Shown here piece after piece: positions 1,959 to 19,923 of a DNA stretch of 23,222 nt. Position numbers and translations under genes: made by a program. The notes beneath the pieces were generated by a model, which saw only the letters and a list, made by a program, of their open reading frames with translations, ran no database searches and was not told the origin of the DNA. Source of the stretch: a virus; the IMG/VR virus record IMGVR_UViG_3300017788_000182, positions 1-23,222 of that record; one strand, 5' to 3'. Position 1 is the stretch's first letter, and each line of letters starts with the position of its first letter.

Positions 1959-3398
1959 TCAGATGGCGGTTGCGGTTATTGTTATTTTATGTTTTGAAAT
2001 ATTTAGACAACTTCCCTTTTTGCTAAATAGTATGTCGCTCCCACTAACGCTGCCCCAGTTTGGAAATGTCGCCGCGTACGCGCCACCAGAAGAATATGTG
2101 CCAGTGGCCGCAGAATTCACTACAGTAAATGTGTTTGTCGTAATGGCAGTTACGGCCCGTTCAGTTGAATTTAAACCGTTTGGTGTTATGCCAGTGACGG
2201 TGACCAAATCCCCTACAGCAAGTTGATGAGCCGCTTTAGTGTATGTTACGGTTTGAGACGCACCAGCACCCGCTCGTACAGCGTTTGTAACCGCACCACT
2301 GTCCGTTGTGCTAATTGTGAGTGAATCAACATCGCGAACAAAAAACTGATTAAGCAGAGTCTGCAAAACGTCGTTATATTTTAGTTTTTCTTCAATCCAT
2401 TGCGCTCCGTCAGAGATTGAAAATTGTTGTACGAGAGCGTCAGTAAGTTGAATTATTAACTCTGAAGATTCAATATCTGAAAAATGTTTTACTGCTGCAG
2501 TAATTTTGCAATCTAACAAAATTGGGTCTTTAATGCCAATTTCCAAACCAGCAACAGTCTTGTTGTTCACTTCGTTTAATATATTTGTTTTCTCAGGAGT
2601 AGTCAAAAATCTTTGCGGACCGTAAACAAAAACAGTAACGTGTCCATTTACTGCTGCGTCACCAACCAAAAGCGCGGAATCAGGGTCTGTTAAGTCATAG
2701 ACCTTTGACCTAGAAACGAGTGCTGGATTTTGTGTTAATACATAGTTGTTCAATTGTGTTGCGGTTACCAACCCAGAAGACATTGTTGCTATTCTGGCAA
2801 CGCCTCGGTCCAAAAATCTAAGAACAGATTCTGCATCTGTACCCTGTACAAAAGTTCCATCCGCTTCAGCAGAATAAACCGTTGGAAGATACGAAAGCAC
2901 GGAAAGTGTTTTTCCGCTTTCAATTTCTGGAATTATTCCAATATTTTGCGCTGTAGCCGCAACCGTTCCATACGGCAACGCAGCGCCTAATTCGTTGGAT
3001 GCAATAACCAGTTGCTCGTCTGTTTCAAACGCATATGATATTTCAAAATCGTCATTTCTTGTCGTACACTGAACAATCGTCCCAATGGGTATTGTGGCGC
3101 CGTCATTGGAGTTGGCTGTAAATTTTACGTTCATGGTTGCGCGTTGTCCATCCGCATATGGGGTTCCAATCATTTTTATAACTCCCATAAACAATGAATT
3201 TGGAAGTCTGTTTATGCTTCCAACATTCAAAGCAGTCATATATGCAAATGCTTGAAACATGGCGTCTTCAATTGTTCCAGGACGCAATTCAAAATCTGGC
3301 AAAACAGTGCGTGCAACTTCGATTGCATCCAAATACAACTGCGCTGGAGATACATCCATTGGCCTTAGGTCTACGTAATATCTAAAATCTGCTGCCAT
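1959..3398 (-). CDS. Baseplate wedge protein, gpJ / Mu gp47-like
   Basis: This 479-residue protein belongs to the baseplate J family, whose members (T4 gp6, P2 gpJ, Mu gp47) form the ring of wedges around the hub and open on infection. Typical features are the N-terminal helical region with PGTIEDAMFQAFAYMTA (40-56), the segment ATIPIGTIVQCTTRNDDFEI (101-120), ATQLNNYVLTQNPALVSRSKVYD (213-235) and the C-terminal stretch NDVLQTLLNQFFVRDVDSLTI (342-362) that ends in DILFSKKGSCLNIS. A beta-rich module (about 368-443) is inserted near the C-terminus and recurs in the connector protein. The gene follows the gp25-like gene by a few bases and precedes the gpI-like gene. AGGT lies eight bases before the ATG. 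Confidence 0.92.
   Translation of the reverse strand: MAADFRYYVDLRPMDVSPAQLYLDAIEVARTVLPDFELRPGTIEDAMFQAFAYMTALNVGSINRLPNSLFMGVIKMIGTPYADGQRATMNVKFTANSNDGATIPIGTIVQCTTRNDDFEISYAFETDEQLVIASNELGAALPYGTVAATAQNIGIIPEIESGKTLSVLSYLPTVYSAEADGTFVQGTDAESVLRFLDRGVARIATMSSGLVTATQLNNYVLTQNPALVSRSKVYDLTDPDSALLVGDAAVNGHVTVFVYGPQRFLTTPEKTNILNEVNNKTVAGLEIGIKDPILLDCKITAAVKHFSDIESSELIIQLTDALVQQFSISDGAQWIEEKLKYNDVLQTLLNQFFVRDVDSLTISTTDSGAVTNAVRAGAGASQTVTYTKAAHQLAVGDLVTVTGITPNGLNSTERAVTAITTNTFTVVNSAATGTYSSGGAYAATFPNWGSVSGSDILFSKKGSCLNISKHKITITATAI
2070..2297 (-). repeat. Beta-rich module copy 1, inserted in the gpJ-like protein
   Basis: Residues about 368-443 of the gpJ-like protein read as a separate small domain: AHQLAVGDLVTVTGITP, then TAITTNTFTVVNSA, then TGTYSSGGAY. 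The same order of motifs occurs in the connector (copy 2 at 16479-16703): NHGFTLGQTVTITGATP, TAVATNTFSIANSG, TGVYTSGGTA. The similarity is at protein level; the DNA has diverged. Modules of this type are widespread as add-ons in phage structural proteins and probably fold as a small beta-barrel or sandwich exposed on the virion. Identity is direct from the sequence; surface exposure is inferred. Confidence 0.75.
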
Positions 3399-11957: not shown

Positions 11958-12164
11958 CTACCGTTTTTTATCCAGTTCGCGCCGTTCTCGCTCGCGGTCT
12001 TGCTCTACTACTTTAGCACAAGCCATAAGTATTAACCATTCATCAGCAGAACACCGCATCAAATCAAGTGGATTGGTCCCCCAAAGTTCTCCAAGCCTTG
12101 CAGCATTAATGATTAGGGAATCTTCGATTAATTCGTCGAAGACTCCCTCATAGGGTCCTCGGTG
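11958..12164 (-). CDS. Tail assembly chaperone, second part, expressed by -1 frameshift
   Basis: This frame is open from just after a TGA at 12167-12165 to the TAG at 11960-11958, but has no ATG, GTG or TTG start near its beginning. It encodes 68 residues, of which 64 follow the probable slip site: YEGVFDELIEDSL, then NAARLGELWGTNPLDLMR, then SADEWLILMACAKVVEQ and a charged end DRERERRELDKKR. The content is protein-like, and its place between the first chaperone and the tape measure is that of lambda gpT or Mu gp42-type extensions. These chaperones coat the tape measure while the tube assembles. The first 172 or so codons of the upstream frame plus this segment would make a fusion of about 234 residues (from ATG 12661). 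The internal ATG at about 12060 would give only a fragment. Confidence 0.82.
   Translation of the reverse strand, partial: HRGPYEGVFDELIEDSLIINAARLGELWGTNPLDLMRCSADEWLILMACAKVVEQDRERERRELDKKR
12115..12148 (-). promoter_or_regulatory. RNA hairpin likely stimulating the -1 frameshift
   Basis: On the minus strand AGGGAGTCTTCGA (12148-12136) pairs with TCGAAGATTCCCT (12127-12115) around the 8-base loop CGAATTAA. This gives 13 base pairs, one of them G-U. The stem starts three bases after the CCT codon where slippage fits, and the zero-frame TAA stop lies in the loop. No U-run follows on either strand, so it is not an intrinsic terminator. Hairpins just downstream of a slip site are the usual stimulator of -1 frameshifting. 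The pairing is directly visible; its role is inferred. Confidence 0.75.
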
Positions 12165-12695: not shown

Positions 12696-12717
12696 GTAAA
12701 TTATTAAACTAATTTAC
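12696..12717 (-). promoter_or_regulatory. AT-rich hairpin at the end of the tail tube gene
   Basis: GTAAATTA-gtttaa-TAATTTAC is a perfect 8-bp inverted repeat with a 6-base loop, starting within the tube gene's TAA stop. No U-run follows, so it is not a normal terminator. It could protect the 3' end of the tube message or lower expression of the downstream chaperones and tape measure, which are needed in far fewer copies. Only the repeat is seen. Confidence 0.35.
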
Positions 12718-13187
12718 TTACTAGCGACCTTTGAAATTGAGAAAGTAAGAGCAAAGGTTGATGGTGCGCCAGAAGACGAGTCTCCGTCTGGCTCGGTCAA
12801 GCCGACCAAAAGGGCCTTTGAGTACATGCGGTCCAAGCCTGGCTTTTTGATATCGCAGTCGTACGTTTCAATTGTGATGTCGTAGTAGGCCTTTCCAACA
12901 TACTCGCGCAACTTTGCGACCTTTGCCGCAATACCAGTCGCACCATCAGATGCAACTCTGTCGTCGTCGTAGTGGGCGGTCAGGGTAATGTCGCCAATAT
13001 CAAATGGGGCGCACAGCACGGTGGGGAAATCGTTTCCACCCTCGTAGATTTTCTCCACCGAAGCAGTGATTTCTCCACCAGAGACTTGAGCAAAACGAAA
13101 AGTTTCAAATTTGGGCAAGTCAGTAATTTGCTGCGTGCCATGCGGTTGAACTCTTGCGAGAACTTGTCGTTGCGCTACTTTTGCCAT
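12714..13187 (-). CDS. Tail tube protein (P2 gpFII / T4 gp19-like)
   Basis: This 157-residue protein lies directly downstream of the sheath, the standard sheath-tube order of contractile phages. Tube proteins of this kind are about 140-170 residues and stack as hexamers to form the inner channel. The sequence is beta-rich with one helix: FETFRFAQVSGGEITASVEKIYEGG (about 28-52), FDIGDITLTAHYDDDR (62-77), a helix AAKVAKLREYVGK (87-99), YYDITIETYDCDI (101-113) and FALTFSISKV near the C-terminus. The strong site GGAGGAA sits about seven bases before the ATG, as expected for an abundant structural protein. It begins 18 bases after the sheath stop. Confidence 0.87.
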   Translation of the reverse strand: MAKVAQRQVLARVQPHGTQQITDLPKFETFRFAQVSGGEITASVEKIYEGGNDFPTVLCAPFDIGDITLTAHYDDDRVASDGATGIAAKVAKLREYVGKAYYDITIETYDCDIKKPGLDRMYSKALLVGLTEPDGDSSSGAPSTFALTFSISKVASK

Positions 13188-13205: not shown

Positions 13206-14684
13206 TTAGACGACCGACTTGGTCAAGTTGGACTTAATGATGTCGACTTCAATTTTGTCGCCGACGCTAGATACTCTGAGACCAACCTTTGCTTTGATAA
13301 GACCATCAGCCAATTGAGCAGTCGGGTTAAGCGACGCATCACACTTTACTGAATAACCAAAGTCGATTCTCTTTCCATTGGTATCAAATGCCTCAAACAA
13401 GGCGCCGCTAGTTCTTAGTGGCTCAAGAATCGCAAACAGTTTTGATTCAACAGCAGAAAAAACGGTGTTTCTGCCGTCGATGACGCTGAACAACAGGTCT
13501 TCAAGTGAGCGGTTGGCCTCAACCACAACCTGATTGACAACATCTTGCGCCGTGATATAGCGGAAATTCGTTGTATCAGAAGATAGCGAGCGAGCACCAT
13601 AAACACGAACTGTGTTATTAATGACACGAATCGCATTGACATTTGCTTCATCAAGGGCGTCACCATTTGACTTGTCAATATCAGTCGCTACGCCATTAAC
13701 AAACGAGGACACCGAAATAAGACCAGCGCCTGGCTTGTGTGCACCAACCTGAGTGTGTGCAACCGCTCTTTTCCCAGCGGCGTAGCCCACGGGTGGAATC
13801 AGTCTGTTTACGCCAGGGGTTGCCGTCGGCACATACACCCAGGGATAGAAATAGGCGACGTGTTCAGTATTTATGGCAGCCGCAGACAAAGTTTGTCCAG
13901 CAGTCGTTGCTTCCGCAATCATGTCGTCAAACGCGCCAAACAAAAACGCGATTCTATTGTATGCATTCGCATGATTTGCCAAGGCCGTTTGAACGGTTGC
14001 GTTTGATGATTCCGCGCACATTACGGCACCAGTTCCAAATGATTCAAGGAACAAATTGAGCCCAGCGACATAGTCGGCTGCGACCACGGTTTCTTGATTG
14101 TCGTCCCCAGCACTGAGTGCGACTGCCGATGCATCGTTGTGTGGTACACCTTCCGCATCAAGGTCTGTGGCGGTTACAAGTTTTGACACAGTTGGGTTGG
14201 AATTAATGCGACCGACTGCTTGTGCAACCGTCGTGACATTGCCCGTGCTGAACACAAGCGTGCCGCCATCAAAAATCTTAATGATGAAAGTACCAGCAGC
14301 AGTTCCTGGGTTTACACACTGAACGGTGATTCCAGTACTCCACGCACCAGGTCCGTTGGCGGTAATCGTCATGACGTTTGTTCCGCCATCGCCAGCCGTT
14401 GTGTTGAGGGTTCTTGAACCAGTGCTATGACCAGAACCAGCGACGCGAGCAATGTATGCTCTTGTGCCACCCTCTTCAAAAAATGTCTGCACTGAAGGAT
14501 GCGTGTACGAATACGACGCGTACCCACCGTAAATCGCCTCAAACTCGGCAAGGCTCGTGACCAACTTGGCTGAACCAACTGGTCCACGCGCAGTCTTACC
14601 TACGAAGAATGCTTGGGATGTTTCAACTGCCGTTGCGGCGTTTGGTCCGACTCTTACTGCTGTTTGTATGCTTACGCCTGGCAT
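13206..14684 (-). CDS. Tail sheath protein (P2 gpFI / Mu gpL-like)
   Basis: This 492-residue protein has the hallmarks of contractile sheath subunits. The N-terminus PGVSIQTAVRVGPNAATAVETSQAFFVGKTARGPVG is followed by SLAEFEAIYGGYASYSYTHPSVQTFFEEGGTRAYIARV, matching the typical 'f...fG......l...v..ff.nGg..ayvvRv' pattern. A variable beta domain (about 90-190) follows. The conserved core has AYFYPWVYVPT, PPVGYAAGKRAVAHTQVGAHKPGAG and YGARSLS, then the C-terminal assembly domain ANRSLEDLLFSVIDGRNT and LIKAKVGLRVSSVGDKIEVDIIK. The sheath contracts to drive the tube through the envelope, so this gene identifies the phage as a myovirus. AGGAAGG lies just upstream of the ATG. The tube gene follows 18 bases later. 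Confidence 0.96.
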   Translation of the reverse strand: MPGVSIQTAVRVGPNAATAVETSQAFFVGKTARGPVGSAKLVTSLAEFEAIYGGYASYSYTHPSVQTFFEEGGTRAYIARVAGSGHSTGSRTLNTTAGDGGTNVMTITANGPGAWSTGITVQCVNPGTAAGTFIIKIFDGGTLVFSTGNVTTVAQAVGRINSNPTVSKLVTATDLDAEGVPHNDASAVALSAGDDNQETVVAADYVAGLNLFLESFGTGAVMCAESSNATVQTALANHANAYNRIAFLFGAFDDMIAEATTAGQTLSAAAINTEHVAYFYPWVYVPTATPGVNRLIPPVGYAAGKRAVAHTQVGAHKPGAGLISVSSFVNGVATDIDKSNGDALDEANVNAIRVINNTVRVYGARSLSSDTTNFRYITAQDVVNQVVVEANRSLEDLLFSVIDGRNTVFSAVESKLFAILEPLRTSGALFEAFDTNGKRIDFGYSVKCDASLNPTAQLADGLIKAKVGLRVSSVGDKIEVDIIKSNLTKSVV

Positions 14685-15732: not shown

Positions 15733-16200
15733 TTAAACATTTCCTTCAACAATGTAATCACCAATCGCATCGGCAACTTCTTGCACCCATCTTTCTGGAG
15801 CAAAAAGTATTGGGCGCGCAGGCATCTTTTCGGTGCCGTATTGATGAAAACGAGTTATTTTTCCAGTGAATGTAAAACTTGCTGTTCGTGCCCCACCATC
15901 AAGTTTTGGACCGCGTGCAATTCGCTGAAAAAGTGACCCAGTTTGAACCAACATCGGCGCGCCAGGAAATGTCCTGGTCTTCCACGAGGCATATTCTGCA
16001 TCGAGCGGTTTCCACCCACCAGCAGGCAGTCCTTGGGCAGTAAAGTTTTCAATCATATAAGCCTTAAGACTTTGATGAACTTTTGGCCACACAGGACTCA
16101 AATCGCGCATCCTTTTCTTTACGTCATCAAGATAGTCCTTTGTTCCATCGTCATTAAGTTCTACTTTTATGTCGACGTTTAATTCTTTTGGTGTTGCCAT
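15733..16200 (-). CDS. Tail completion protein, Mu gpG / P2 gpS-like (virion morphogenesis family)
   Basis: This 155-residue protein matches the phage virion morphogenesis family, which helps join tails to heads. The family pattern is visible: a helical N-terminus with YLDDVKKRMRDLSPVWPKVHQSLKAYMIENF (about 19-49), PAGGWKPLDAEYASWK (58-73), the block LVQTGSLFQRI (83-93) that normally reads 'L..tG.L..sl', a beta strand (TASFTFTGKI), and the end block RFHQYGTEKMPARPILF (117-133), the usual 'Ya..hQ.G....iPaRpfl'. The ATG overlaps the connector gene's TAA stop (TAATG), implying translational coupling, and the stop lies two bases before the next ATG. Confidence 0.85.
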   Translation of the reverse strand: MATPKELNVDIKVELNDDGTKDYLDDVKKRMRDLSPVWPKVHQSLKAYMIENFTAQGLPAGGWKPLDAEYASWKTRTFPGAPMLVQTGSLFQRIARGPKLDGGARTASFTFTGKITRFHQYGTEKMPARPILFAPERWVQEVADAIGDYIVEGNV

Positions 16201-17072
16201 TATGCAATTCTTCTTCGCGAATATTTCTTTAGTTGCATTAATTCGGTCTCTAAAAATCCAGTTTCAACGATGGCCACACCTCGTGGATTTAAGTCCTTAA
16301 CACCGACAACGTCATCGTGCATGTTTTGCATTTCTCTTGTTGCCGCTCGCAAAATCATCAATTTAAACATCTTGATGTTGTCCCCATCAAGACCACCTCT
16401 ATACGTAACCCTGATTATGTCGTTTGCAAAACCAGTGTAAATATCTAATCCGTATCGTCGAACTGTATATTCACTTCCGTTTGCTGTTGCTGTTCCACCC
16501 GACGTGTAAACACCAGTAACACCAGAATTGGCAATAGAAAAAGTATTAGTTGCTACGGCAGTGATTATTTTGGCATTGATATTGTATGTCGTTGGTGTTG
16601 CTCCCGTAATGGTTACGGTTTGACCAAGAGTAAATCCATGATTTGCCGCAGTGTAGATTGCGGTTCCAGATGCAACTGTTGCTGCGGTAATTGTTGCTGT
16701 TCGTTTTACCGCTTCACCAAGAATTTTATTATTTAATGTTGGTCCGTCTATTTCTACTTTGGACACAGAAACGATGGGGGTGTGTCGCATATAAATTGTG
16801 CTTGGCGGCGCAGCGTATGTAATAATGCCGTTTGGGTCAGAATCCCCAAGACCAAGCCCCTGGTTATAGAAATATGAGCCCATCGGCACATTGACGTGGT
16901 TTGCTTCAAGAATGTGAGTTTCTTCGACAAATTCAGTCACTTCTACTGGCCGACCCAAAAACGTTTCCATTTCGCTTTGAAGACCCTGCAAAATCATTTC
17001 GGCAGCATCTTGTTGTCGTAGCGACAACGTAATGTCCATATAAGTTGTGAGGTCAGAAAGTGTCACCAACAT
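16200..17072 (-). CDS. Head-tail connector (adaptor) protein with an inserted beta module
   Basis: This 290-residue protein has the general outline of head-tail adaptors (gp6/gp15-like): an N-terminal helical part (SLRQQDAAEMILQGLQSEMETFLGRPVEVTE, about 17-47), a central strand region (HTPIVSVSKVEIDGP, 97-111, as 'h.PV.sV..V..dg'), IRVTYRGGLDG (220-230, the usual 'v.v.Y..G'), then C-terminal helices with LMILRAATREMQNMHDD. Such proteins form the ring under the portal. A beta-rich module (about 124-198) interrupts the strand region and recurs in the gpJ-like wedge. AGAGG lies about nine bases before the ATG. It opens the tail cluster, right after a candidate terminator. Confidence 0.82.
   Translation of the reverse strand: MLVTLSDLTTYMDITLSLRQQDAAEMILQGLQSEMETFLGRPVEVTEFVEETHILEANHVNVPMGSYFYNQGLGLGDSDPNGIITYAAPPSTIYMRHTPIVSVSKVEIDGPTLNNKILGEAVKRTATITAATVASGTAIYTAANHGFTLGQTVTITGATPTTYNINAKIITAVATNTFSIANSGVTGVYTSGGTATANGSEYTVRRYGLDIYTGFANDIIRVTYRGGLDGDNIKMFKLMILRAATREMQNMHDDVVGVKDLNPRGVAIVETGFLETELMQLKKYSRRRIA
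16479..16703 (-). repeat. Beta-rich module copy 2, inserted in the connector
   Basis: Residues about 124-198 read NHGFTLGQTVTITGATP, then AKIITAVATNTFSIANSG, then TGVYTSGGTATANG. They align in order with residues about 368-443 of the gpJ-like protein (copy 1 at 2070-2297). The module splits the connector between VEIDGPTLNNK and SEYTVRRYG, which would otherwise be adjacent strands. A common origin by domain shuffling is the simplest reading. Confidence 0.75.
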
Positions 17073-17442: not shown

Positions 17443-17985
17443 CTATCTATCGGAATTTGGTGGCCGTTCGGTCTCAAATTTGTCAACAGTTCCCGCTGGC
17501 GCCTCAATTGGAACCCATGCGCGTGAGTATTTGTGATTTTGGATATTCAGTTTTTTGATAATTGTTCCGTCCATTAATAACTGCAATTCATCATATTTCA
17601 TTGACAGCAATGCCTGAATTTGTTCCTCGGTATATTTTTTGCTGTAAATAAAATCTTTGATTATTCTAGAAATCAAATGTGCAACAAGGGTTCCCCTGCC
17701 CCTATTTATTTGCAGATGCATCATTGCCGCTTCCAAAGAATCGCATGATTTGAAAACACAAGGCACTTGCGGGAATTGTTTTTGAAAATGTTCGTTATCT
17801 TTTACCAACATCCATCTGTGGTAACCGTCAATAATCGAATTGTCTTCTTTTCTAACCAAAATTGGATAAATAAAACCATTCTCTCGGAGCGATGCGGAGA
17901 GCGTTAATAAATCTGGACGAAGAATGTAATTGCTGTGCCAATCACCCTTTTTTAACAAATCCACCGAAACGTAACTAATTTCCAT
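17443..17985 (-). CDS. ParB/sulfiredoxin-fold protein, IbrB-like, second copy
   Basis: This 180-residue protein has the ParB/Srx signature in order: VSVDLLKKGDWHSNYILRPD (7-25), LSASLRENGFIYPILVR (29-45), the key motif SIIDGYHRWMLVK (50-62) and a region with INRGRGTLVAHLI (93-105). A C-terminal extension (about 106-180) has helices and an acidic end. The GxHR core can bind nucleotides; some members are nucleases or CTPases, others act in regulation. It starts within the last codons of the PP-loop gene (11-base overlap), so the two are translated together. This matches the IbrA-IbrB pairing known from E. coli prophages. It differs clearly from the ParB-like protein upstream of the cassette, so the two are not a recent duplication. 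Confidence 0.85.
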   Translation of the reverse strand: MEISYVSVDLLKKGDWHSNYILRPDLLTLSASLRENGFIYPILVRKEDNSIIDGYHRWMLVKDNEHFQKQFPQVPCVFKSCDSLEAAMMHLQINRGRGTLVAHLISRIIKDFIYSKKYTEEQIQALLSMKYDELQLLMDGTIIKKLNIQNHKYSRAWVPIEAPAGTVDKFETERPPNSDR

Positions 17986-19132
17986 TTGTCCCTTCCTCTA
18001 CATCGTTTATCTCGTGAGAATCTAGTTCTCTCATTGTGTGTGCTTTTGTTTTTGGACCGATTGGGCTTGCGGCTTTACTTATAGCCAAAGAGTGCATAAA
18101 CAACGAATTTATCAAAGAATAAATTGTGTACGACTTTGGGTCAGCAACATGTTTTCGTCTGTATTCAGCCACAAAAGACTTGGCACGCTTTGTTTTGCTT
18201 GGGCCAATAATATAGTCGTCAATAAATTGACTGGCGCCCGAAAAACCCATTTTTGTATATTTTCGAATAATTGATTCAACATCAAGAACTGGCCAGTAAC
18301 GATATTGAGCATCCATATACGGAAAACATCGATATAGTTCGTCATAGAATTCTGGTTCAGTAGCAACTACGTCTCCAATTCGACGTATTGCCACAGAGTG
18401 CAGTGGAATACCAACTCGCGTATTACTGCCAGTTATGGCCGCCCTGTCGTAGTATTCGCAATATCGCTCACCGTGCTCTTCTGTAATGAACTTAAATACA
18501 TCCGCTGTTTGCCAATCATAAATGACCTTTGCGAATTTGAGTGGCATGCCCTTCTTGGTCTTGTATGGGGTAACGATGTAATTTTCGTGCAATTTTTGAA
18601 CCAGCGAACGATATCGAATCATGGATTCTGTTGCCCTAACTCCAGTAATAAAAGCAACACTTCCAGTCTTTCCCTGCATCGTGTAGTAATCAATATGTTG
18701 CGGAAGTGGCTTGCTGTTATCCAGACCAAAATGATGGCCAGTTATGGCAAACGGTGGAACTTCTCTGACCAATCGACCCGCTTTTCTTCGGGCGTCGCTC
18801 CACAAAATGCAGGATTGGCGACGACCAAGGACCCATATTTCAGAACCCTGCGGCAAGCAATACCACTCCATGTCAACCCATGGGCGGGTGCGAACATATT
18901 CAATGTATTCAAGAGTAAGAGGACTAACCATTTCTTCGTCGCGAAATATCACTTTGACTGGTCCAAGATTTCGCTCTTCGTGTACTTCTTTTGCCAACAA
19001 CAGCACGGCTGTCGAATCTTTGCCGCCAGAAAATTGAACGCAGACGGTATCGAACGTGTCATAGACGTGACGAATGCGTTGGCGCGCAGCCTCTACGCAA
19101 TTTATATCTAAAAATAGGCGCTGCCTAGTCAT
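17975..19132 (-). CDS. PP-loop ATPase of the PAPS-reductase / IbrA family
   Basis: This 385-residue protein has the PP-loop SGGKDS (35-40) after a strand (DTVCVQF), then VKVIFRDEEMVSPLTLEYI, in which DEE takes the place of the acidic motif of adenine-nucleotide alpha hydrolases. It also has SVAFITGVRATESMIRYRSL (around residue 175-195), the 'G.Ra.ES..R' motif of PAPS reductase-like enzymes, and VIYDWQTADVFKFI, the 'P..dWt..dvw..i' motif. No C-terminal ECGLH active-site motif of CysH is present, so it is unlikely to reduce sulfate. The length and pattern fit the IbrA/DUF3440 group, related in fold to DndC of DNA phosphorothioation. The gene overlaps ParB-like genes on both sides. Adenylation of a substrate is the likely chemistry; the substrate is unknown. 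Confidence 0.88.
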   Translation of the reverse strand: MTRQRLFLDINCVEAARQRIRHVYDTFDTVCVQFSGGKDSTAVLLLAKEVHEERNLGPVKVIFRDEEMVSPLTLEYIEYVRTRPWVDMEWYCLPQGSEIWVLGRRQSCILWSDARRKAGRLVREVPPFAITGHHFGLDNSKPLPQHIDYYTMQGKTGSVAFITGVRATESMIRYRSLVQKLHENYIVTPYKTKKGMPLKFAKVIYDWQTADVFKFITEEHGERYCEYYDRAAITGSNTRVGIPLHSVAIRRIGDVVATEPEFYDELYRCFPYMDAQYRYWPVLDVESIIRKYTKMGFSGASQFIDDYIIGPSKTKRAKSFVAEYRRKHVADPKSYTIYSLINSLFMHSLAISKAASPIGPKTKAHTMRELDSHEINDVEEGTNGN

Positions 19133-19923
19133 GCGTCTGTATGGGCGTCGATGAAATTTATAAGACGTTCAGACGTGGTTGAACCATCTATTGCCGCGTC
19201 GTTGCGGAGCCACCTAATAAAGTCATACCAGCGTCGTTGCTGTTCGGGTGAATCAAAAACAATCTGAACAGAAACAATTGCCTGAGGGGCAGAGCCAGGA
19301 ACGGCGACAGTTGAACCCTGTAATACGACATTCTTTTGGTCCATGTCTTTTGCTGCTATTAACTTTGTTTCTCCGTCGTCGTCTTTTTGCACCAATGATG
19401 AAAGTTGTTTTTCAACCTCGTCAATCGAAGATGATGGCGGAATAATAATTACTGGAGCGACGTATGCCGTGTTGGTGATTTCGTCGTTCGCTTTTATCGC
19501 TGCCCGCTCATCCATGGCGGCCATTTCAAATTCATCCCACCCCAGACCACTCCATAGGTCACTAAAATCTTGTGAAACTTCTGTCAGCATTTTTTGCAGC
19601 ATGTCGTCATCGGTATAGCCGAGTTCCATTGTTCGGTTATCTGCCAAAGCGTATGCAATCGCGCGCTTGTCATCACCATCAATAAATACAACAGCAATCT
19701 CATTCCATCCAAGTTGCTTGGCAGCCATAACCTGGTGGTTGCCCGCAACAATTGTCGCAGTTCCGTCATCGTTTTTCTTAACAACGATGGGCTTTATTTG
19801 TCCGAATTCCGCATATGACGCCGCAATCGCGTTTACGTCACCCTTGCGGGGGTTGTTGTTGAGGTGTACGAGTTGGTCAATCGGGAACACCAATGATTGC
19901 AGCGATGGATGGATGTTGCTCAT
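19129..19923 (-). CDS. ParB/sulfiredoxin-fold protein, first copy
   Basis: This 264-residue protein carries the ParB N-terminal domain: FPIDQLVHLNNNPRKGD (13-29), SYAEFGQIKPIVV (36-48), TIVAGNHQVMAAKQLGW (57-73) and YALADNRTMELG (91-102, the usual 'a.aDNr....'). The GNH at 61-63 is in the position of the GERR/GxHR nucleotide-binding loop. A linker (about 140-210, with PPSSSIDEVEKQ) leads to a C-terminal part with VSVQIVFDSPEQQRRWYDFIRWLR and ERLINFIDAH. No helix-turn-helix is obvious, so this is not a partition ParB. Both ends overlap neighbours as ATGA. It probably works with the PP-loop protein encoded next. Confidence 0.87.
   Translation of the reverse strand: MSNIHPSLQSLVFPIDQLVHLNNNPRKGDVNAIAASYAEFGQIKPIVVKKNDDGTATIVAGNHQVMAAKQLGWNEIAVVFIDGDDKRAIAYALADNRTMELGYTDDDMLQKMLTEVSQDFSDLWSGLGWDEFEMAAMDERAAIKANDEITNTAYVAPVIIIPPSSSIDEVEKQLSSLVQKDDDGETKLIAAKDMDQKNVVLQGSTVAVPGSAPQAIVSVQIVFDSPEQQRRWYDFIRWLRNDAAIDGSTTSERLINFIDAHTDA

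Follow-up and report, generated by a model that had tools for sequence, protein, structure and literature searches.

Programmed frameshifting between overlapping tail-chaperone genes is an established mechanism. Phage lambda uses a -1 frameshift to produce gpG and gpGT (Xu, Hendrix and Duda, 2004, as cited in PMC5009743), and a programmed frameshift in the tail assembly chaperone of phage GMA6 has also been described (PMC4524720). Slippage of a single tRNA on a tetramer has been ranked in E. coli in the order A_AA.G > U_UU.Y > C_CC.Y > A_AA.A (Sharma et al., 2014, PMC4066793). In that work C_CC.U was weak and required a strong stimulator, and C_CC.A and C_CC.G were among four motifs that exceeded background by only 1.8-3.6 fold (PMC4066793). 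The mechanism proposed for the locus described here is already known and its Gordonia relatives are already annotated as frameshifted, and the modestly new element is a bare pyrimidine tetramer as a family-wide slip site of tail chaperones. In the open-licence literature, no paper was found that names C_CCU as a tail-chaperone slip site, many subscription papers lying outside that scope, and the backward motif classes of PRFect appear without the bare C_CCT (PMC10885494). The initial annotation had called the slip site unusual, which is accurate for tail chaperones; E. coli experiments had already demonstrated shifting at this motif (PMC4066793).

The window, which is the whole stretch of 23,222 nucleotides that was analyzed, is an IMG/VR viral metagenome contig whose minus strand carries a contractile-tail module (Table 1). 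The first of the two overlapping frames encodes a tail assembly chaperone and is located between the tail tube and tape measure genes. In BFVD, its AlphaFold model is closest to the Brevibacterium phage Cantare tail assembly chaperone (E 9.4e-10). Searches of Pfam and NCBIfam gave no named family for either chaperone part, and no relative of the fusion protein was found among solved structures.

Table 1. Features of the tail module on the minus strand of the window
Feature	Coordinates	Strand	Evidence
Tail sheath protein	13206..14684	(-)	phrog_23 tail sheath, E 1.2e-37; contractile tail
Tail tube protein	12714..13187	(-)	phrog_5102 tail tube, E 7.4e-19
Tail assembly chaperone 1 (G-like), zero frame, 177 aa	12128..12661	(-)	phrog_5088 'tail assembly chaperone', E 1.2e-14
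Tail assembly chaperone 2 (T-like), -1 frame	11958..12164	(-)	conserved protein in all relatives
Slip tetramer C_CCT	12152..12155	(-)	Y_YYN in 81/81 distinct relatives
Spacer ATG, 3 nt	12149..12151	(-)	5-6 nt to conserved core stem in relatives
Hairpin, 13 bp	12115..12148	(-)	-20.9 kcal/mol; synonymous-null z; covariation
Tape measure protein gene, 1560 aa	7224..11906	(-)	longest ORF, directly downstream; position matches annotated relatives

Several other features of the window were recorded. Close to its C-terminus, the tape measure protein weakly resembles M15 peptidases (PF08291, E 0.048). A three-gene cassette at 17443-19923 (minus strand), encoding ParB_N, PAPS reductase-like and ParB_N proteins (PF02195, PF01507), is like the IbrA/IbrB-type pair of phages and adjoins the head-tail connector genes. 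Two otherwise different structural-module genes (1959-3398 and 16200-17072, minus strand) share a similar repeat, which matches E1_FCCH (PF16190) weakly and below the curated cut-off.

The zero frame of the first chaperone ends in GAC CCT ATG AGG GAG TCT TCG ACG AAT TAA, with the TAA stop at 12130-12128. Open from 12164 to 11961 (68 codons), the -1 frame has its stop at 11960-11958 and is directly preceded by a TGA at 12167-12165. Checking of coordinates and codons bore out the earlier description of a 68-codon frame between the chaperone and the tape measure that has no proper start. The first common start codons, TTG and ATG near 12060, are encountered about 30 codons into the frame, and their use would lose half of its conserved domain. 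The initial annotation correctly placed a C-CCT within a short overlap of the two frames, although the overlap is 37 bases by our recount and not 36. The tetramer occupies 12155-12152, where the zero-frame proline codon CCT (12154-12152) can be exchanged for re-pairing on CCC (12155-12153). With G_GAC_CCT as its context, re-pairing as a heptamer would need the Asp tRNA to pair on GGA; the site is not an X_XXY_YYZ heptamer with two tandem re-pairing codons and belongs with the Z_ZZN tetramers followed by a downstream structure, here C_CCT and the hairpin (the class of PMC4066793).

Relatives were collected from GenBank phages and by scanning IMG/VR with the fused protein and its alignments. The 202 usable locus records, some of which are the same contig twice, comprise 81 distinct sequences, counted as unique over a stretch that opens 6 nt ahead of the slip codon start and runs to 60 nt beyond it; three records cut by contig ends and L207, which had no match in the sequence search, were left out. 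The named relatives are myophages of Gordonia (ScarletRaider, GMA6, DalanDe, and ChisanaKitsune), Arthrobacter (ArV1, DrYang, EastWest, Abba, and Lymara), and Brevibacterium (Cantare), and judging by these the hosts are actinobacterial. The second frame lies in -1 in all 202 usable records and all 81 distinct sequences. A sequencing error or a decayed gene, for which the missing start codon and nothing else would speak, has a negligible probability and is refuted by the recurrence of the same arrangement in all usable relatives, which come from many metagenomes and isolates.

The coding nature of the -1 frame is clear at the level of sequence. Its product after the slip point begins with YEGVFDELIEDSLIINAARLGELWGTNPLDLMR... 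and comprises 64 aa (YEGVFDELIEDSLIINAARLGELWGTNPLDLMRCSADEWLILMACAKVVEQDRERERRELDKKR). This protein is conserved across all relatives, and among close pairs, 64% of the substitutions hit a third codon position of the -1 frame. The AlphaFold model of the -1 part is a confident four-helix domain (pLDDT 92.6). A PHROG search with the second part returned weak matches only, to unnamed families, and a structure search likewise returned weak matches only, to small unnamed phage proteins.

The second frame overlaps the first in -1 and is conserved as a protein without a start of its own. A separate start codon was considered and rejected, as no relative has a proper one there; such a codon had been named beforehand as an observation that would speak against frameshifting. 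ATG, GTG and TTG are all missing from the first 20 codons past the slip in 46 of the first set of 65 distinct relatives, and an in-frame ATG within 20 codons of the slip is found only in four named Gordonia and Arthrobacter phages, where it lies inside the domain. The second frame could nevertheless be translated as a protein in its own right if ribosomes that had passed the zero-frame stop re-initiated, internally or by coupling, at a non-standard or late start codon. The close overlap of the zero-frame stop and the second frame would suit such a process, as would a TTG located 12-15 codons past the stop in some relatives, the late TTG and ATG in the window, and the short separate ORFs annotated in Arthrobacter and Brevibacterium records. 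Re-initiation is very improbable, however, given the scarcity of early starts just described, the removal of part of the conserved domain by those starts that are usable, and its failure to explain the conservation of Y_YYN and the choice of CCY codons.

A Y_YYN tetramer is located 6-24 nt before the zero-frame stop in every usable relative (81/81 distinct), mostly as C_CCU or C_CCC, rarely as C_CCG and once as U_UUU. The codon pairs among the 81 distinct sequences are GAC CCT (53), AAC CCT (11), GAC CCC (8), GAC CCG (4), AAC CCC (3), AGC CCT (1), and GAT TTT (1). On the protein tree, all of the slip-site substitutions needed (10/10) preserve Y_YYN. The GAT TTT of L009 arose from GAC CCT by three C-to-T changes that retained a homopolymer. 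The overlap therefore holds a conserved slip site that permits -1 re-pairing of the tRNA. Protein-level constraint was controlled for with another Asp-Pro, in the FGxDPH motif of the same protein: the slip-site proline is encoded by CCY in 76 of 80 sequences versus 9 of 67 at the control (Fisher p 3e-26, a nominal value since the sequences are phylogenetically related and relatedness is uncorrected). This preference for CCY fits the E. coli order U_UU.Y > C_CC.Y > C_CC.R (PMC4066793). A small clade (L061, L062, L063, and L065) combines C_CCG with a strong hairpin (-18.6 to -21.1 kcal/mol).

The position of the shift can be bracketed by relatives at the extremes. L040 and L096 have a TGA in the -1 frame, adjoining the CCC on its 5' side, so the shift would occur no earlier than the CCY codon. 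In ArV1 (L036) the zero-frame stop starts 6 nt past the slip codon start, with one codon between, so the shift would occur no later than the codon after CCY. These limits would confine the shift to CCY and the next codon only if the homologous site is used throughout. Within that interval, the slip could take place one codon later, in tandem on CCU and its neighbor, or as a net +2 shift, in place of single-tRNA slippage on CCU. The Gordonia and Brevibacterium site, a C_CCU_UUR heptamer that would place CCU in the P site, is compatible with these variants, and the A_AAC_CCY clade would put CCY in the A site. They are nonetheless quite unlikely, as the codon after CCY is unconserved and in most relatives (ATG, ACG, TCG, CAC) offers no good re-pairing, whereas CCY alone is kept throughout; full heptamers are limited to the A_AAC_CCY clade and the C_CCU_UUR relatives.

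The hairpin reported behind the slip site (AGGGAGTCTTCGA / CGAATTAA / TCGAAGATTCCCT) was found as described, with arms at 12148-12136 and 12127-12115 and the zero-frame TAA at the 3' end of the loop CGAATTAA (12135-12128). In the resampled window, a 13-bp stem (G-U allowed, loop 3-10) is expected about 0.9 times per strand, and the mere existence of such a stem is therefore unremarkable. The hairpin is striking by its position behind the slip, its depth relative to a synonymous null, and its conservation with covariation. Against a null in which the same -1 peptide was recoded with synonymous codons, it has a z of -2.45 (p 0.017). The clade that carries it has the stop 24 nt past the slip codon start and a bare tetramer (48 distinct sequences). 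Across this clade, the 45 nt behind the slip fold at a mean of -18.1 kcal/mol, with a mean z of -2.1 to -2.3 (-2.12, n = 48) and p < 0.05 in 32 of the 48.

Covariation was assessed in 42 aligned sequences, in which 86% of the cells pair and 6 of the 14 pairs show two-sided changes. The covariation score is 0.220, which none of 500 shuffles reaches (0.156 when shuffled), and with slid partners it is at most 0.113. Among the compensatory changes, an A-U pair became G-C at columns 15/40, and G-C became U-A or A-U at columns 22/33; on the tree several double changes, these two column pairs among them, are independent. The outermost stem pairs, columns 11/44 and 12/43, are poorly kept (70% and 47% paired), so the conserved stem begins 5-6 nt after CCT, which is an ordinary spacing. 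The 3-base spacer that the initial annotation regarded as unusual is thus peculiar to this sequence.

The hairpin is absent from most A_AAC_CCY sequences, the Arthrobacter phages, and the L102/L112 group, and the relatives with the tetramer only and no local hairpin comprise the Arthrobacter phages, L105, L107, L108, and the L102/L112 group. A family-wide role was accordingly rejected, since the element is missing outside mainly one clade, and the hairpin is regarded as a clade-level candidate stimulator, not a family-wide requirement. The expectation that relatives would keep the stem and show covariation held in the stop-at-24 clade and failed in some others. A strict trade-off, in which a heptamer would mean no hairpin, also fails, as L135 and L143 have A_AAC_CCU together with a significant hairpin and several bare tetramers have neither. 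A search of Rfam gave no match for the hairpin.

This patchy distribution, along with tailed-phage shifts that are apparently stimulator-free (reviewed in PMC5009743), would be expected if the shift were real, the tetramer alone were enough, and the hairpin were a by-product of FDELIEDS/FDELVEDS coding with no stimulatory role. Such a by-product is unlikely, though, in view of the stems outperforming their synonymous versions, the repeated two-sided stem changes, and the stimulator required in the E. coli tetramer work.

Programmed -1 ribosomal frameshifting at C_CCT, yielding a G/GT-type chaperone pair, is very probably the explanation of this arrangement. The same shift between the tail-chaperone frames had been proposed at the outset, and it agrees with a second frame that is always in -1 and a tetramer that is never lost. 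A small share of the ribosomes on the chaperone gene would slip one base 5' with tRNA-Pro on CCU (12154-12152), and this tRNA would re-pair on the overlapping CCC (12155-12153). In the hairpin clade, the 13-bp mRNA hairpin downstream probably pauses the ribosomes. Ribosomes that slip would go on in the -1 frame (UAU GAG GGA ...) and produce a fusion, ...TVDTEDP|YEGVFDELIEDSLIINAARLGELWG..., of about 234 aa beside the 177-aa product. If the division of labor follows that of lambda gpG/gpGT, the tape measure protein would be coated by the short form and the tail tube protein recruited by the fused T-like helical domain, with the shift rate setting the ratio of short to fused product. Slippage during transcription is unlikely with three C in a row. 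Sequence comparison shows how the frames are related, the slip site and that it is conserved, the covarying hairpin, and that the -1 frame is coding. We infer the shifting, its rate, and the roles of the products in assembly from work on lambda and E. coli (PMC5009743, PMC4066793); the ribosomal site that would slip and stimulation by the hairpin are inferred as well. Two observations count against the proposal: C_CC.U is weak in E. coli (PMC4066793), yet several tetramer-only relatives lack a hairpin, and four related sequences use C_CCG, which is barely above background in E. coli.

It is possible, and we suggest it tentatively, that the ancestral and family-wide slip site is the bare single-tRNA Y_YYN, and that individual lineages have extended it with A_AAC on the upstream side, with UUR on the downstream side, or by a hairpin, as interchangeable parts that keep the shift rate. 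The family provides a natural and well-sampled set of weak one-tRNA -1 sites in which the slip codon, hairpin, and stop position vary, and the rules from E. coli reporters may thereby be tested against evolution.

The joined-CDS fusion is already annotated in the Gordonia records examined, and the GMA6 record carries the note 'translated by conserved programmed translational frameshift'. The second chaperone is unannotated in the ArV1 record, and the EastWest, DrYang, Abba, and Cantare records have a short separate hypothetical ORF at the second frame. Arthrobacter and Brevibacterium GenBank records (L036/L197, which is ArV1, L042, L038, L043, and L039) are without the frameshift fusion but still carry GAC/AGC CCT and the conserved -1 frame, and the missing fusion is likely an annotation gap. 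This suggests that the annotations of Arthrobacter phages, ArV1 for example, lack a second chaperone product and that automated searches limited to longer motifs also miss it.

As in lambda G/GT, two overlapping frames are located between the tube and tape measure genes, the second is startless, and a -1 shift near the end of the first is expected to give short and fused products. The differences from lambda are a pyrimidine tetramer as slip site, C_CCU with U_UUU in a single relative, in place of a G_GGA_AAG-like heptamer, and a hairpin that covaries within one clade; a family search gave no relation to the lambda proteins. Shared with GMA6 and other Gordonia myophages are a homologous chaperone (~30% identity), the gene order, and the GAC CCT slip pair, and a -1 fusion is already annotated in them. 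They differ in having the heptamer C_CCU_UUG, a zero-frame stop 9 nt past the slip codon start, and no significant local hairpin. Listeria phage PSA (PMC5009743) also uses a proline codon as a slip site in structural genes, although the shift there is +1 on CCC before a stop or pseudoknot and would be -1 on CCU here. The slip site itself resembles the Z_ZZN motifs of E. coli (PMC4066793), among which C_CC.U, C_CC.C, and U_UU.U are functional, a pyrimidine N is preferred, and the stimulator was placed 5 nt downstream. Those motifs were studied in IS3/IS911 contexts in E. coli, whereas the tetramers described here belong to a natural phage gene family.
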